From a virus, in IMG/VR virus record IMGVR_UViG_3300013138_000029, positions 1 to 31,310 of that record: DNA of 31,310 nt. One strand, given 5' to 3'. The position numbers and the translations under genes are program-made. Below, in pieces: positions 11,887 to 27,711 of this stretch. Position 1 is the stretch's first letter. Every line of letters begins with the position of its first letter. The notes beneath the pieces are model-generated. The model saw only the letters and a list, made by a program, of their open reading frames with translations, had not been told where the DNA came from and searched no databases.

Positions 11887-13071
11887 TTACGAGTGCATCT
11901 GGAGATACTGGAACGCCTCGGCCTGCCCGACGTTGCCGCCGAAGCGGACGTACCAGACGAAGCCCACCTGCCCGGAGGCGGCGTACAGCTCGTTGAGCCG
12001 CATGGCGACAATGCTGGGCCGCTCGGCCATCACGTAGAAGTTGAAGTTCGCGCACATCAGCGGCTTCAGCGAGGCAGTCTGCGCGGGCATGGTCGAGTCG
12101 ATCATGACGGGCATTCCCATGAGCTCACCGAACCCGCCAGTGATCATCGGCATGTTGGCTCCAGCGCCGCGCTTGCCCTGCGGAGACTCGAGGAACGCCA
12201 GGGTGTTGCTCACCTGCAGTCCGCGGATGTATGCCTCGGTCGTGTCGGTCGTCACCCACACCGCGCCGTCGCGGTAAGCGCCAGACAACTGATAGAACTG
12301 GGCGATGACCTCGGCCGCCGTGATCGCGGTAGCACTCGCGGCAGTCGTGCCGAGCGTGCCGCCGATAAGCGCGGCCTTCGGCTGCGAGGTGCCGGTGCCG
12401 GTGCTGATGAGGTAGTAGTTCTCCGTCAGGCCAATAGCGCGGCCAGCCGCGCTGTAGATGAACTGCTCCAGGTTGCTGTCGTTGTCGGCGAGGACTTCCC
12501 ACGAAGCCTTCACCAAGCGGCTGAAGCCGTAGACCGTGATCTTCGCGGTGCCCAGGGTAGGCTCGTCCTCGTCGGCCGCGGTGCCTTCGCCCACGATGAC
12601 GAATCTGTTCATGCTCGTCCCTTCGATGGGGACCTCAACCACGTTGCCGGAGGTCTGGAGCACGCGGGCGCCAGCGCGCCGGGCGATGCTCAGCTCGTTC
12701 CGCTTCTCGATGACGGCGTTGTACACCGGGGTCGGCACGGTGTAGCCGCCAACCGCGCCGGACGACTCAGCGTAGGCCGCCTTCATGCCGTCGGCGCCGG
12801 GGTCGATGTCGGTGGGGGCCATGCCCTGAGAGGCCTGCCCGGTGCGGACGTAGTGCGTCCACGCCTTCATGCCGTCGTTGTCGTCGCCGCGCTCGGCGAC
12901 AGAGTGGAACAGGTAGCCGCCCTTGCGCCCGTAGCGGGCCTTGACGATCTCCATAGCCCGCTCTTCGATGCGCTTCTCTTCGTCGGCCTTGCGGTCGGCC
13001 TCAGCCTGCCGCGCGGCGTCGTGCGCCTTGAGCGCGTCTGCGATCTTGAGTTCGATGTCCTTCTCGTCCAT
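11887..13071 (-). CDS. Major capsid protein from an internal in-frame start
   Basis: ATG at 13071 (residue 190 of the fusion) is preceded by GCAGGAG with 6-nt spacing, as good a ribosome site as any in the window. Internal initiation would give a 394-residue capsid subunit with its own scaffold-like N-terminal coil, beginning MDEKDIELKIADAL, in large excess over the fusion. This resembles the nested arrangement of lambda C/Nu3. Translation from here is an inference from the site. Confidence 0.7.
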   Translation of the reverse strand: MDEKDIELKIADALKAHDAARQAEADRKADEEKRIEERAMEIVKARYGRKGGYLFHSVAERGDDNDGMKAWTHYVRTGQASQGMAPTDIDPGADGMKAAYAESSGAVGGYTVPTPVYNAVIEKRNELSIARRAGARVLQTSGNVVEVPIEGTSMNRFVIVGEGTAADEDEPTLGTAKITVYGFSRLVKASWEVLADNDSNLEQFIYSAAGRAIGLTENYYLISTGTGTSQPKAALIGGTLGTTAASATAITAAEVIAQFYQLSGAYRDGAVWVTTDTTEAYIRGLQVSNTLAFLESPQGKRGAGANMPMITGGFGELMGMPVMIDSTMPAQTASLKPLMCANFNFYVMAERPSIVAMRLNELYAASGQVGFVWYVRFGGNVGQAEAFQYLQMHS

Positions 13072-13638
13072 GTTGTTCTCCTGCGGCGTGTCCGCCGCTG
13101 CTGTAGTCGATACGGTTGTTTCAACGTATGGCAACGGGTCGGTCTGCGTCTGTGCCCCGTCCGGGGCCGCCTGTCCAGGCGTTTCAGTCTCAGACTTAAC
13201 CCGCGATACCCCAAGGGTACGCGGCTCACAGGGAATTGGCGTTACCGATGCCTCGGCAACGGTCCACGCCTTGATAACTGAGCCTTCGCGGTCTGCGAGG
13301 TGTCCGATAGTGCCTGTGCTAATGCCGAGCTTGCCTTGCTTCACAAGCTCAAGAACAGCCTCGATGTACTTGTTGCTGCGCTCTATCTGCATCTCGAGCC
13401 AGAGGCCTACATCGTCAATCTTTTCGGATACCACCTTGCCAATCTTGCCGCGCAGGCTGGCGTCTAGGTTGTGCTCAAAGAACACGTCCTTGACTGGCAC
13501 ATAGGCCAAGTTCAGGTTGACGTCCTTTGCGAACGTCTCACCCGCCAGGTCCACGCCTCCGAAGATGACACCGTACCCGGCCAGAACAACATCGGTGTCT
13601 GTCGCGCTCTTGATATGTGCAAGTAGTCGTTCGTCCAT
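11887..13638 (-). CDS. Prohead protease-major capsid fusion protein
   Basis: 583 residues from ATG 13638 (GAGG 5 nt upstream). Residues 1 to about 155 are an S78-type prohead protease, with the usual His in FFEHNLD, followed by GKIGKV and the Ser in LGISTGTIG. A Pro/Thr/Gln-rich linker (about 155-188) joins it to an HK97-fold capsid. That part has a helical scaffold-like stretch (190-235, KAHDAARQAEADRKADEEKR), then VGGYTVPTPVYN, ALIGG, and the C-terminal VWYVRFGGNVGQAEAF. The protease would act in the prohead, cutting off the scaffold segment. The leader upstream holds the promoter-terminator element (13653-13740). Confidence 0.88.
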   Translation of the reverse strand: MDERLLAHIKSATDTDVVLAGYGVIFGGVDLAGETFAKDVNLNLAYVPVKDVFFEHNLDASLRGKIGKVVSEKIDDVGLWLEMQIERSNKYIEAVLELVKQGKLGISTGTIGHLADREGSVIKAWTVAEASVTPIPCEPRTLGVSRVKSETETPGQAAPDGAQTQTDPLPYVETTVSTTAAADTPQENNMDEKDIELKIADALKAHDAARQAEADRKADEEKRIEERAMEIVKARYGRKGGYLFHSVAERGDDNDGMKAWTHYVRTGQASQGMAPTDIDPGADGMKAAYAESSGAVGGYTVPTPVYNAVIEKRNELSIARRAGARVLQTSGNVVEVPIEGTSMNRFVIVGEGTAADEDEPTLGTAKITVYGFSRLVKASWEVLADNDSNLEQFIYSAAGRAIGLTENYYLISTGTGTSQPKAALIGGTLGTTAASATAITAAEVIAQFYQLSGAYRDGAVWVTTDTTEAYIRGLQVSNTLAFLESPQGKRGAGANMPMITGGFGELMGMPVMIDSTMPAQTASLKPLMCANFNFYVMAERPSIVAMRLNELYAASGQVGFVWYVRFGGNVGQAEAFQYLQMHS

Positions 13639-13652
13639 CGTCACCTCGCAAC

Positions 13653-13696
13653 AAAAAAGCCGGGCACCGCAGTCGTCTTGACTTGCGGCCCCGGCT
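13653..13696 (-). terminator. Intrinsic terminator inside the capsid leader (late element 2)
   Basis: On the minus strand AGCCGGG pairs with CCCGGCT, then CCGCA with TGCGG and GTC with GAC (small bulges, loop AAGAC), followed by TTTTTT. It starts 22 nt after the -10 of the promoter at 13719-13740 and ends about 15 nt before the protease-capsid start. Stem and T-run are textbook. Confidence 0.88.
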
Positions 13697-13718
13697 ATAT
13701 GCTCGTCGGCCTAGTCAC

Positions 13719-13740
13719 ATTGTACCACACCGCATAGCGG
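13719..13740 (-). promoter_or_regulatory. Late extended -10 promoter (element 2)
   Basis: CCGCTAT, 9 bp, TACAAT, with TGTGG directly ahead of the -10 (extended -10 TGGTACAAT). The same arrangement with the same spacing is at 19653-19674. There is no -35 match, so an activator or other factor may be needed, with CCGCTAT as a candidate site. Lies right after the stop of the gp10-like gene. Confidence 0.7.
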
Positions 13741-19257: not shown

Positions 19258-19572
19258 CTAGTACTTGATGTCGTCCGCGATGCTGGCCCGCCAAGCGCTG
19301 ATGCCCTTGAACACCTCGGACACCAACTGCGAGCCGCCGCCCACAACGAAGGCCGTCAGAATGCGGCCGACTTCAGGATTGACGAAGTACTGCGAAAACA
19401 GGTTGAGGTTCGCCAGCCAAGACAAGGCGCCGCCGGCCACCCAGGTGACGTAGATGAGCCACCACATATCCAGGTTGGGGAACTTCTGCTTGACCGGCCG
19501 GACAATGGCCTCGATGATCTGCTGGGATGCGGCGGAAAAGAAAATCGCGGTGCTGATAGGTTCAAGGGGCAT
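19258..19572 (-). CDS. Holin-like membrane protein
   Basis: 104 residues, with GGAGG 6 nt before ATG 19572. Two hydrophobic segments: DMWWLIYVTWVAGGALSWLA and GRILTAFVVGGGSQLVSEVF. Similar small phage proteins with 'KFP.LD.WWLIYV' precede or follow lysis genes and are annotated as holins. It would form pores in the inner membrane at the end of infection. The message is headed by the promoter-terminator element at 19592-19674. Confidence 0.75.
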   Translation of the reverse strand: MPLEPISTAIFFSAASQQIIEAIVRPVKQKFPNLDMWWLIYVTWVAGGALSWLANLNLFSQYFVNPEVGRILTAFVVGGGSQLVSEVFKGISAWRASIADDIKY

Positions 19573-19591: not shown

Positions 19592-19631
19592 AAAAAGCCG
19601 GGCGACTCTGGTACTCAGAATCGGCCCGGCT
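19592..19631 (-). terminator. Intrinsic terminator inside the holin/terminase leader (late element 1)
   Basis: AGCCGGG with CCCGGCT (7 bp), extended by CGA-TCG and TCTG-CAGA with one bulged base, then TTTTT. It starts 21 nt after the -10 of the promoter at 19653-19674. The stem base and tail match the terminator at 13653-13696, while the upper stem sequence differs. Confidence 0.88.
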
Positions 19632-19652
19632 GTGTGCTCGTTGCCTGTGTCC

Positions 19653-19674
19653 ATTGTACCACAGGGGATAGCGG
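19653..19674 (-). promoter_or_regulatory. Late extended -10 promoter (element 1)
   Basis: CCGCTAT, 9 bp, TACAAT with TGTGG before the -10. Identical arrangement and spacing to element 2. Predicted start is near 19646; the leader would run straight into the terminator. Confidence 0.7.
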
Positions 19675-22528: not shown

Positions 22529-22635
22529 AGCCCTCCCGTGAACTCCAGCCAGAATGCCCACAGCGCCGCTGCCGTCCACGCCAGCCAGAACAGGCCCAGC
22601 ACAACGAGCGCAACAACAAGCAGCACGCTACCCAT
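22525..22635 (-). CDS. 36-aa W-rich membrane peptide (family copy 1)
   Basis: ATG 22635, in the context AAGCATGGG, overlaps the stop of the 71-aa gene. MGSVLLVVALVVLGLF is a transmembrane helix, followed by WLAWTAAALW and a short end EFTGGL. The peptide matches those at 26119-26226 (YWLAWTAAALWGFW) and 27526-27711 (FWLLWTAAALAG). The stop/start junction GGGCTATGA is the same as in copy 2. A repeated small membrane family within one phage is unusual. Confidence 0.75.
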   Translation of the reverse strand: MGSVLLVVALVVLGLFWLAWTAAALWAFWLEFTGGL

Positions 22636-22843
22636 GCTTGAACCGCTTTCGCCGCACCGGCTCGGCCACTACTGGAGGCCACATATGCGCGATGCCGAGC
22701 AGGTCCGCAAGCTCTGCGGAGACTGGCCCGGCCAACCAGCGCCGCGCGCCGTGGTGCCCGTGCCGCGCGTCAACGACGGCCTGGTAGATGACGGCCAGCA
22801 GCAGCATCCGCGCCGCCGCGTAGGTCGGCAAGTAGTCGGTCAC
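22628..22843 (-). CDS. 71-aa early protein, source of a duplicated 3' segment
   Basis: GTG 22843 overlaps the upstream stop (GTGA). MTDYLPTYAAARMLLL starts a helical protein. The last 38 codons (from RRWLAGPV to KRFKHG) lie in a 116-bp segment also found at 27534-27649, 107 of 116 bases identical. Small phage proteins with 'A.RWL' and '...DLL.I' are common near early genes; role unknown. Confidence 0.75.
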   Translation of the reverse strand: MTDYLPTYAAARMLLLAVIYQAVVDARHGHHGARRWLAGPVSAELADLLGIAHMWPPVVAEPVRRKRFKHG

Positions 22844-25144: not shown

Positions 25145-26122
25145 TCAATCTTCGCCGTCCGCATCGGTGGGGGAGGGGTGAAGGACCTCCGCCAGTACCG
25201 CCGCCACGTTCCGATGCTCCCCACGCAGGAACGTACCGCCGCCATTTCCACGCCGAGGCATGGCGTACCCCTTCTCTCGCAGCCACGCCACCGCCGCCAC
25301 CCACTCGCCCGCGCTCCACCCCAACGACCGCGCCGAGGGGATGGTCACACTCTCGGCCGGGCACGCTTGCAGAAGCCGCACAACACGCCCACGCACAGGG
25401 TCATCCAGCACCAGGTCACGCCGCTCCCCAATGACGGTGTAAGGCACGCTCCGCACGACCGCCAACTCACCGCCCCGCCGTTCCTCGCCCGGCAGCACTT
25501 GCCAGTCACCGGCCCGGCAGATTGCTACGCCCATCGCGGTTTGCATGATGCGCTCCCGGTCTGCCCGCGCCCGCACCAGTTCGATCTCAGCGTCTCGCCG
25601 GTCGCGCTCGGTCTGGATTCGCATCTGCGCCCAGCTCGACAGGCTGACCACGCCCGCCAGCAGCACCGCCAGCAGCGAGATCACCAACCCCCACAGGCTC
25701 GCCGTCTTCGCCAGTTCCGTCCGCGCCACGTCCCCCGCCTGCTGGGTCGCCCGCAGAGCAATCCGCCCCGCCGTCTCGGTCTCCGAGCGCCGGGCAATCC
25801 CGGCCGCGCTCGTCTGCTGGAACTCCACCGCCTGGCGAGTCACCGTCGCCACGCTCTCAGTCACTGCCCGGCGCCAGGCCTGCTCCGTCGCCGTCACGTC
25901 CAGCGCGTAGGCGCCCGCCTCCACCGTGGCCGCTCCCGCCGTGCCCCGCGCGTCCTCTGTCGCTTGCGCCACATGGACGCCCACCGCCTCCGCCGTCACC
26001 CGCCCCGCCTCCGCCGTCGCCTGCCAGCCCACCAGCCCCGGCGTCACCACCGGCGCCACCGTCACAGGTTGCGCCACGCAGCCGCACAGAAGCACGGATA
26101 CGACGACGAACGCGCGCTTCAT
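25145..26122 (-). CDS. Lipoprotein-like membrane protein with coil and winged-helix-type C-terminus
   Basis: 325 residues; ATG 26122 overlaps the W-rich peptide stop. MKRAFVVVSVLLCGC looks like a signal peptide with an imperfect lipobox (LCGC). An Ala/Thr/Glu-rich helical region (about 30-130; many ATAE and VTAEAV units) leads to a transmembrane helix (about 143-163, SLWGLVISLLAVLLAG), then a charged helix and a C-terminal domain with possible wHTH (SAGEWVAAVAWLREKG). Such Ala/Thr coils are common in Chloroflexota surface proteins. Role may be envelope-associated (exclusion, signalling); unproven. Confidence 0.75.
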   Translation of the reverse strand: MKRAFVVVSVLLCGCVAQPVTVAPVVTPGLVGWQATAEAGRVTAEAVGVHVAQATEDARGTAGAATVEAGAYALDVTATEQAWRRAVTESVATVTRQAVEFQQTSAAGIARRSETETAGRIALRATQQAGDVARTELAKTASLWGLVISLLAVLLAGVVSLSSWAQMRIQTERDRRDAEIELVRARADRERIMQTAMGVAICRAGDWQVLPGEERRGGELAVVRSVPYTVIGERRDLVLDDPVRGRVVRLLQACPAESVTIPSARSLGWSAGEWVAAVAWLREKGYAMPRRGNGGGTFLRGEHRNVAAVLAEVLHPSPTDADGED

Positions 26123-26226
26123 AGCCCCGCCACGAACTCGCACCAGAAGCCCCACAGCGCCGCGGCCGTCCACGCCAGCCAGTACAGCACCAGCAGCACG
26201 AGCGCCACGACTGCGAGGCTAGGCAT
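26119..26226 (-). CDS. 35-aa W-rich membrane peptide (family copy 2)
   Basis: ATG 26226 overlaps the methyltransferase stop. MPSLAVVALVLLVLYW is a membrane helix; WLAWTAAALWGFW and EFVAGL follow, matching copy 1. The end GGGCTATGA joins directly to the next gene's ATG, as in copy 1. Confidence 0.75.
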   Translation of the reverse strand: MPSLAVVALVLLVLYWLAWTAAALWGFWCEFVAGL

Positions 26227-27538
26227 ACGTCACTATCCTGCGCCCTATCCACTCCGCCACCGGCACCGTCACGGCGTTTCCCAACATGCGGTAACGCGCC
26301 GAGTCGCTCTCCGGCTCCGTCCATCCATCAGGGAAGCCCTGGAGACGTTCGCACTCAACAGGCGTTAGTCGGCGGATGCCTACCATCATCTGCCCAAGTG
26401 TGTTCAGCGGTTGCGAGATCGCGGACGGCTTCGAGCGGTGAAGTTTGCTCGTCATCTGCGCCGCGTCCCAACAAAGCTCAGGCACCATCGGCGTACTGCG
26501 TCCAGTGCCGTCCTCGCTGGCGTCGGCTTCGGCGCGGAGGGTGTGAGCCACCACGGGCGCCGCGTCGCCCTTGCCAGTTCCGCCGCTCTGCGCCTTGAGC
26601 GGCGGCGCTACCACGTCCGGCGCCCCGCGCCCGTTGCGAAGGTAGCGAGTCTCGAAAACCAAAGGCTCGCTGTCTCCACCTTGACTACTGGCGCGCAGCG
26701 GAGGACATTCCTCGCTTATGCTGTCAACGTTTCCAGTTTTGTTGTCGCGTGTAAAAAACCTAGATTGAAATACCATCGGCACGTTGCCGCCGCCTGTGCC
26801 AATGTGAGTCGATAGCGTTGACGCTGACGGATTCCAAGCCTCAGGTACAAACGCCTCGCTCTCCATGTCTATCCTGTAGCCGTGCGCGTTAAGCGATGCG
26901 GCCACCACTCCGGCAGTTCCTTTCCGCGCTTCGCCGCCCGCCGCTCGATTCCCGCTATCGCCGTCTCGCTCAAAGAGTACTTGAGCAGCCACTCCAGAAA
27001 TGCCTCCTCCGTCCTGAATGTCGCCACCACCCACGGATCGCCCCACTTCAGCAAGGCTTCCGACAATGAACACTCTGCGGCGTCGTTGGGCCACTCCGAA
27101 ATATCGACTGTCAAGCACGCGCCAGGAATACCGATACCCGCTGTTTGCCAACCCGCGAAGGATGGCGGCAAAGTCCCGTCCTCCGGCAGACGATAGAAGG
27201 CCGGGGACATTCTCGATGACAACAAATCGCGGATGACTTGCGTCAATGATGCGACGAAACTCGTACCAGAGGCCGCTCCGTTCTCCAGCCAGGCCCGCCC
27301 GCTTTCCGGCCACTGAGACGTCTTGGCAGGGGAAGCCTCCGCAAATAACGTCTGCTGTAATCCGCTCAACGTCTCTGACATCCCTCCGCCTTTCCACGTC
27401 CGGCCAATGACGCGCCAGGACGTTGTTACAGTGCTTGTCTATCTCAACCTGCATCACGCAGCGCATACCGGCGCGCTCGAGGCCGAGGTCAAACCCGCCG
27501 ATGCCGCTGAACAGGCTTGCGAACGTCATGTTACCCAT
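26219..27538 (-). CDS. C5-cytosine DNA methyltransferase
   Basis: 439 residues. Motifs in order: I FASLFSGIGGFDLGLE (about 6), IV GGFPCQDVSVAG (about 66, catalytic Cys), VI VIENVPG, VIII QRRRRVFIVG (about 145), late IX/X RRLTPVECERLQGFPDGW and GNAVTVPVAEWIGRRI. It transfers a methyl group from SAM to C5 of cytosine in DNA. The target-recognition region (about 165-355) has several repeating segments of the form 'tL....G.G....PmVF', typical of phage enzymes. No restriction partner is nearby, so protection of phage DNA is likely. Confidence 0.94.
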   Translation of the reverse strand: MGNMTFASLFSGIGGFDLGLERAGMRCVMQVEIDKHCNNVLARHWPDVERRRDVRDVERITADVICGGFPCQDVSVAGKRAGLAGERSGLWYEFRRIIDASHPRFVVIENVPGLLSSAGGRDFAAILRGLANSGYRYSWRVLDSRYFGVAQRRRRVFIVGSLAEVGRSVGGGDIQDGGGISGVAAQVLFERDGDSGNRAAGGEARKGTAGVVAASLNAHGYRIDMESEAFVPEAWNPSASTLSTHIGTGGGNVPMVFQSRFFTRDNKTGNVDSISEECPPLRASSQGGDSEPLVFETRYLRNGRGAPDVVAPPLKAQSGGTGKGDAAPVVAHTLRAEADASEDGTGRSTPMVPELCWDAAQMTSKLHRSKPSAISQPLNTLGQMMVGIRRLTPVECERLQGFPDGWTEPESDSARYRMLGNAVTVPVAEWIGRRIVTYA

Positions 27539-27711
27539 GCTTGAACCTCTTGCGCCTCACCGGCTCGGCCACGACAGGCGGCCACATGTGCGCGATGCCC
27601 AGCAGGTCCGCAAGCTCTGCGGAGACTGGCCCGGCCAGCCAGCGCCGCGGCGGTCCACAGCAGCCAGAACAGCGACAGCACCGCCAGGACCGCAATCAGC
27701 AAGGCAGTCAT
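27526..27711 (-). CDS. W-rich membrane peptide (copy 3), chimeric with a duplicated segment
   Basis: ATG 27711 overlaps the helicase-loader stop (ATGA). The product begins MTALLIAVLAVLSLFW and has WLLWTAAALAG, the W-rich family block, then departs at the junction near 27649 into 37 basic residues. Those 37 residues are read from a 116-bp repeat of the 71-aa gene (22628-22843) in another frame. It is likely a recombinant: the repeat's own frame holds the original 38 codons without a start. It overlaps the methyltransferase start by 13 nt. Confidence 0.65.
   Translation of the reverse strand: MTALLIAVLAVLSLFWLLWTAAALAGRASLRRACGPAGHRAHVAACRGRAGEAQEVQAWVT
27534..27649 (-). repeat. 116-bp duplicate of the 3' end of the 71-aa gene
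   Basis: 107 of 116 positions match 22631-22746. All nine differences are synonymous in the frame that encodes RRWLAGPV to KRFKHG, and that frame ends in TAA at 27531-27533. No start codon lies upstream in this frame except an improbable TTG. Confidence 0.8.

Follow-up and report, generated by a model that had tools for sequence, protein, structure and literature searches.

How phages control their late genes is poorly known beyond a few models. The virus record analysed here (the window, 31,310 bases) carries its packaging, head and tail genes all on the minus strand, and two late genes on that strand are preceded by a predicted promoter with a T-tailed hairpin between it and the start codon. 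How would a gene be expressed when its transcript meets a putative stop before the coding sequence begins? Is passage past the hairpin regulated or constant? Or does the hairpin serve some other purpose? The two genes are as follows.

11887..13638, minus strand: protease-capsid fusion gene, with ATG at 13638; GTG at 13644 is likewise in frame
19258..19572, minus strand: holin-like membrane protein gene, first gene of the packaging region, with ATG at 19572

The protease-capsid gene matches PF05065 in Pfam (E 1.4e-37) and, in a PHROG search, both phrog_10 (major head protein) and phrog_80 (head maturation protease); an exact-peptide search found no close relatives of its protein. The packaging region runs holin-like gene, unknown ORF, terminase small-subunit candidate, terminase and portal. 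The holin-like protein has no match in Pfam or PHROG, so the label ‘holin’ rests on position and hydrophobicity; it is 33-35% to ORFs of L056-L058 (our labels for compared sequences), which there lie upstream of a terminase small-subunit homologue. The element before this gene (copy 1) sits at the border of early and late genes, which share a strand there. The window also holds repeats of other kinds. A 54-nt direct repeat (1718-1771 and 1981-2034, 96% identical), with a GC-rich palindrome inside (GGGCCGCCCGCCTGGGCGGCCC), lies just 5' of small plus-strand ORFs near the window end opposite the early genes; a 123-nt direct repeat (22624-22746 and 27527-27649) is 91% identical, and a shorter related repeat of part of its neighbourhood occupies 26119-26216.

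Both copies have the same order: extended -10 promoter, leader, T-tailed hairpin, start codon. Their parts are these.

13653-13740, minus strand: copy 2, whole, preceding the protease-capsid gene
13734..13740, minus strand: copy 2 CCGCTAT block, at about -28 to -22, identical to copy 1 at 7/7 positions
13719..13729, minus strand: copy 2 extended -10 promoter, TGTGGTACAAT
13697..13712, minus strand: copy 2 predicted +1 (A at 13712) and 16-nt leader, AGGCCGACGAGCATAT, with AGGC and ACGAGCA common to copy 1
13653..13696, minus strand: copy 2 predicted intrinsic-terminator hairpin and T6, stem base AGCCGGG/CCCGGCT
19592-19674, minus strand: copy 1, whole, preceding the holin-like gene
19668..19674, minus strand: copy 1 CCGCTAT block
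19653..19663, minus strand: copy 1 extended -10 promoter, TGTGGTACAAT
19632..19646, minus strand: copy 1 predicted +1 (A at 19646) and 15-nt leader, AGGCAACGAGCACAC
19592..19631, minus strand: copy 1 predicted intrinsic-terminator hairpin and T5

A first-pass annotation had described twin minus-strand elements here, and every part of both is present, with some corrections. It had the leader at 22 nt; the AGGC..ACGAGCA bases are there, but only 15-16 nt precede the hairpin. Its CCGCTAT and TACAAT promoter parts are found as well, and the TG of the TGTGG that it noted is an extended -10 motif. The position of CCGCTAT, however, marks it as a spacer block and not a -35 box; the best -35 match in either copy is 2-3/6, which gives no usable hexamer. 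A stock promoter and terminator scan of the window reported neither copy because its rules require that hexamer. The predicted start in both copies is an A followed by GGC. The hairpin of copy 2 (13658-13696, with T6 at 13653-13658) has 16 bp and a folding energy of -27.4 kcal/mol, and that of copy 1 (19596-19631) has 15 bp and -26.1 kcal/mol. From the T-run to the start codon there are 19-23 nt, too few for a usual promoter, so the order promoter, terminator, gene with no promoter between holds as first described, and expression of the gene would need read-through.

Could such an arrangement arise by chance? Both hairpins are much more stable than their shuffled versions (z -3.6 and -5.3). 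Only three T-run hairpins of -12 kcal/mol or below were found on the minus strand of the window, namely the two copies and a third that lies across the portal gene start. When the window was dinucleotide-shuffled 30 times, no T-run hairpin of -20 kcal/mol or below had an extended -10 within 45 nt upstream. Comparison of the two copies is also informative. CCGCTAT (7/7), TGTGGTACAATG (12/12) and AGGC (4/4) are identical, as are ACGAGCA and AGCCGGG past a 1-nt indel, and these alternate with intervening blocks that match at 1/4 (the spacer next to CCGCTAT) and 0/5 positions; the 5' flank matches at 16/47. Because stretches without a single difference are interrupted by others whose identity is at or near the chance level, the copies are old and constrained and not the product of a recent duplication, as the first-pass annotation had argued, and selection on the blocks is the simplest account. 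The kept blocks include the spacer block and transcribed bases, which lie outside the ordinary parts of a promoter.

Controlled read-through of the late operons is the most likely reading of these elements. In its specific form, to which we give slightly less than an even chance, each element would be a late promoter with a promoter-proximal terminator whose read-through is regulated by a factor acting from the promoter. From the anatomy, the block conservation and the recurrence of the plan, which are observed directly, we infer that the promoter fires, that the hairpin terminates, that read-through is controlled, as opposed to constant and partial, and that the factor acts from the promoter. 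By default, polymerase would make an RNA of about 55-60 nt and stop at the hairpin; late in infection the factor would let it pass the terminator. Copy 1 would gate the holin-packaging operon and also stop transcripts entering from the early genes, and copy 2 would provide the protease-capsid-tail block with a gate and a promoter of its own. With the layout returning before the same genes in many distant relatives, this suggests that these phages make their shell and lysis proteins only once polymerase is let past the stop. The likeliest mode would be an antiterminator, from phage or host, that loads at the promoter as lambda Q and Pseudomonas AlpA do. It would recognise CCGCTAT, which lies between the -35 position and the -10, the start of the transcript (AGGC-N1-2-ACGAGCA), or both. 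Such loading fits the conservation of the spacer block and of the first bases transcribed.

How close are the known systems? In lambda, pR' and tR' precede the holin gene, a position like that of copy 1. The likeness extends to a late promoter, a short terminated RNA and a terminator before a holin gene at the early/late border, and a factor-binding block would be expected between -35 and -10, where the two promoters here carry CCGCTAT as a candidate. In contrast to lambda, the terminator begins at about +17 (that of lambda lies further downstream), a second element stands before the capsid gene, and neither a Q homologue nor a pause element was recognised. AlpA of Pseudomonas aeruginosa has been shown experimentally to let polymerase pass terminators 26 and 54 nt past the start sites, and its promoters (alpB and PA0807) have a common element between -35 and -10 (PMC7969949). 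Here too, two promoters with a common block in that region have a close intrinsic terminator before the first gene, as judged by sequence and folding, but the AlpA promoters have -35 and -10 boxes and the motif GGGACGN5GGTA, and no AlpA relative was recognised in the window. The leader of T7 gene 10 is similar in that promoter, 5' hairpin, U-rich stretch and ribosome site precede a major capsid gene; its hairpin is short, is no terminator and is read by the phage polymerase. We would place the elements near the Q and AlpA promoters without filing them as members of that kind. Literature searches found AlpA (PMC7969949) and, among the papers covered, no report of this plan before capsid genes.

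Which protein might be the factor? The HTH proteins and small unknowns of the early operon had been put forward, and none could be singled out. Searches for antiterminator families in Pfam, PHROGs and NCBIfam gave no match, such proteins sharing little sequence, and comparison of the early genes with those of L415, L021 and L018 revealed no recognisable antiterminator. A 74-aa protein encoded just upstream of copy 1 has a predicted structure of low confidence (pLDDT 60).

Is the plan found elsewhere? Phages were gathered through terminase and capsid homology, the element itself not being the criterion, and genomes by searching Chloroflexota, the phylum to which Thermosporothrix hazakensis (L003) belongs, with capsid and terminase. 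About a dozen diverged lineages, some from Chloroflexota, repeat the order of promoter, leader, T-tailed hairpin and start codon ahead of a late or head gene, with leader sequences that are unrelated from one lineage to another.

L021: before the holin gene (PF09682)
L415 (terminase 58% identical): before a holin-like gene
L419: before the terminase small subunit, a gene identified from sequence and position only
L075, L076, L416: before scaffold genes
L020/L044/L045, L021, L023, L168, L250/L251/L304, L252, L346, L347: before protease or protease-capsid genes

L021 thus has the plan at both the holin and the protease/capsid sites, as the window does. L304 was found by pattern search and is left out as an independent case; L244 begins within a leader of plan type. 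Among the listed cases, leaders are 15-88 nt and stems 11-23 bp, the T-run lies mostly 17-40 nt from the start codon and is at the stem base or one base past it in 17 of 18 hairpins, and most promoters have an extended -10. By an automatic rule applied to 1,557 gene calls, head-gene homologues have the plan upstream in 12 of 184 cases and other genes in 12 of 1,244 (odds ratio 7.2, Fisher p 1e-5), which we take as support and not proof because shared ancestry is ignored and some plan-bearing genes were themselves queries for the head-gene set. The L021 holin is one of the 12 other genes. The rule did not pick up copy 1, since the simple gene caller had preferred a longer, overlapping frame there.

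A lack of conservation in relatives would have refuted the first-pass reading; conservation is seen for the plan, with its enrichment before head genes, but not for the exact sequence, and many relatives go without the plan. The plan is absent at the capsid gene of L022/L028/L050/L060, from most prophage-like loci L387-L410, and from a large group among L174 to L240, which has a leaderless TGTGGGATACT-N6-ATG start instead. This motif is conserved at the protease start (e.g. L174:960-980) and looks like an extended -10 promoter yielding a leaderless mRNA. Exact and loose element patterns had no match in viral contigs of the viral collections, and the 15 matches in genome collections fall below the roughly 38 estimated by chance. 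A further 63 looser matches were coding or ordinary promoters; L116, one of the 63, is an unrelated phage with a similar promoter and no T-run. The CCGCTAT-type common block was not found outside this phage. This, the relatives that go without the plan, the hairpin of L018 with no T-run (below) and the failure to recognise an antiterminator gene all count against regulated read-through from the promoter. Judged from these comparisons, the element sequence is private to this phage and the plan is not.

Several other features were seen in the relatives. In L250:7722-7860, L251:8700-8853 and L304:3650-3820, head genes follow a structured leader of about 120 nt. It has a T-tailed terminator, an outer stem GCUUG/CAAGC and an inner stem in which the two sides change together; that of L251 has no match in Rfam, and the leader is a candidate new regulatory RNA class. 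Another structured leader of about 130 nt, about 92% identical among L020:3966-4113, L044:3993-4142 and L045:12607-12750, lies between an extended -10 promoter and a terminator-like hairpin, with the head protease gene downstream. L029:5160-5324, L045, L047 and L063 have, in a single intergenic region upstream of terminase, two extended -10 promoters (TGGTATAAT and TGGTACAAT) that point towards one another with strong hairpins between them. L418:3900-4000 and L425:2640-2720 have a T-tailed hairpin between terminase and portal, its T-run nearly touching the next ATG.

Might the RNA itself, and not a promoter-loaded factor, open the gate? The leader (GGC..CG.GC) could act as an antiterminator by pairing with the 5' arm of the terminator hairpin (GC-CG-GCC), a pairing that a ligand or protein would stabilise, much as in the RAT of BglG/LicT, where a leader hairpin overlaps that arm, and the longer structured leaders of relatives could work alike. 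We consider this unlikely, although the leader bases kept in both copies are those able to pair with the arm, the extra C in the leader of copy 2 pairs with an extra G in its arm, and the L250/L251/L304 leader has pairing changes on both sides of stems. The pairing exceeds that of shuffled leaders only weakly (p 0.04 and 0.20 for the two copies, combined 0.048), over ten lineages it is not significant (p 0.13), and the terminator is some 17-20 kcal/mol more stable. Rfam gave no match at the elements even at E up to 5, no RAT consensus was seen and no BglG-type protein was found among the proteins scanned. An attenuator peptide was considered and rejected: copy 1 opens ATGGACACAGGC whereas copy 2 reads ATG TGA, so the frame is not common, and L251 has lost the start of a short frame seen in the leader of L250.

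Nor do we find it probable that the elements are unregulated 5' leaders, with a hairpin that mainly shields the mRNA and holds read-through into the most expressed late genes at a constant, partial level, somewhat in the manner of the 5' hairpin of T7 gene 10. A hairpin 17-49 nt 5' of the start codon in all listed cases would suit such a role, as would L018 (the closest viral terminase, 60%), which carries TACAATGGATACAGGC, close to TACAATGGACACAGGC of copy 1, and keeps a promoter and a long hairpin before a head gene with no T-run; the terminator part is thus dispensable in at least one relative. A stabiliser, however, would not need the T-run that nearly all listed hairpins have, and the kept spacer and leader blocks would be left unexplained. 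It is very unlikely that the short RNAs are the product, as two related small RNAs of about 55-60 nt acting in trans: each has a defined promoter and terminator and they have the 5' sequence AGGC-N-ACGAGCA in common, but the position before late-operon and head genes across lineages with unrelated leaders points to a role in cis. Equally hard to credit is an insulator whose hairpin only stops upstream transcripts, the promoter match being weak or idle, which would suit copy 1, between early and late genes on one strand, but clashes with the short gap past the hairpin, with no room for a usual promoter, and with the promoter being the best kept part.

What is new is that the arrangement is doubled before the capsid operon and that the plan returns in many uncultured phages with unrelated leaders. 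More tentatively, a wide undescribed group of phages, probably of Chloroflexota, may keep late and head operons under promoter-terminator gates, with gate and leader replaced between lineages while the plan is kept; the short leaders here and the new structured leader RNAs of L250/L251/L304 and L020/L044/L045 would all belong to it. If so, capsid production would be subject to a widespread form of attenuation with antiterminators of its own. If the gates are regulated, they would offer a ready reporter in the search for new antiterminators or RNA-sensing switches among phages of a phylum from which few viruses have been cultured. They would also mean that capsid synthesis, beyond the late operon as a whole, can be under read-through control.
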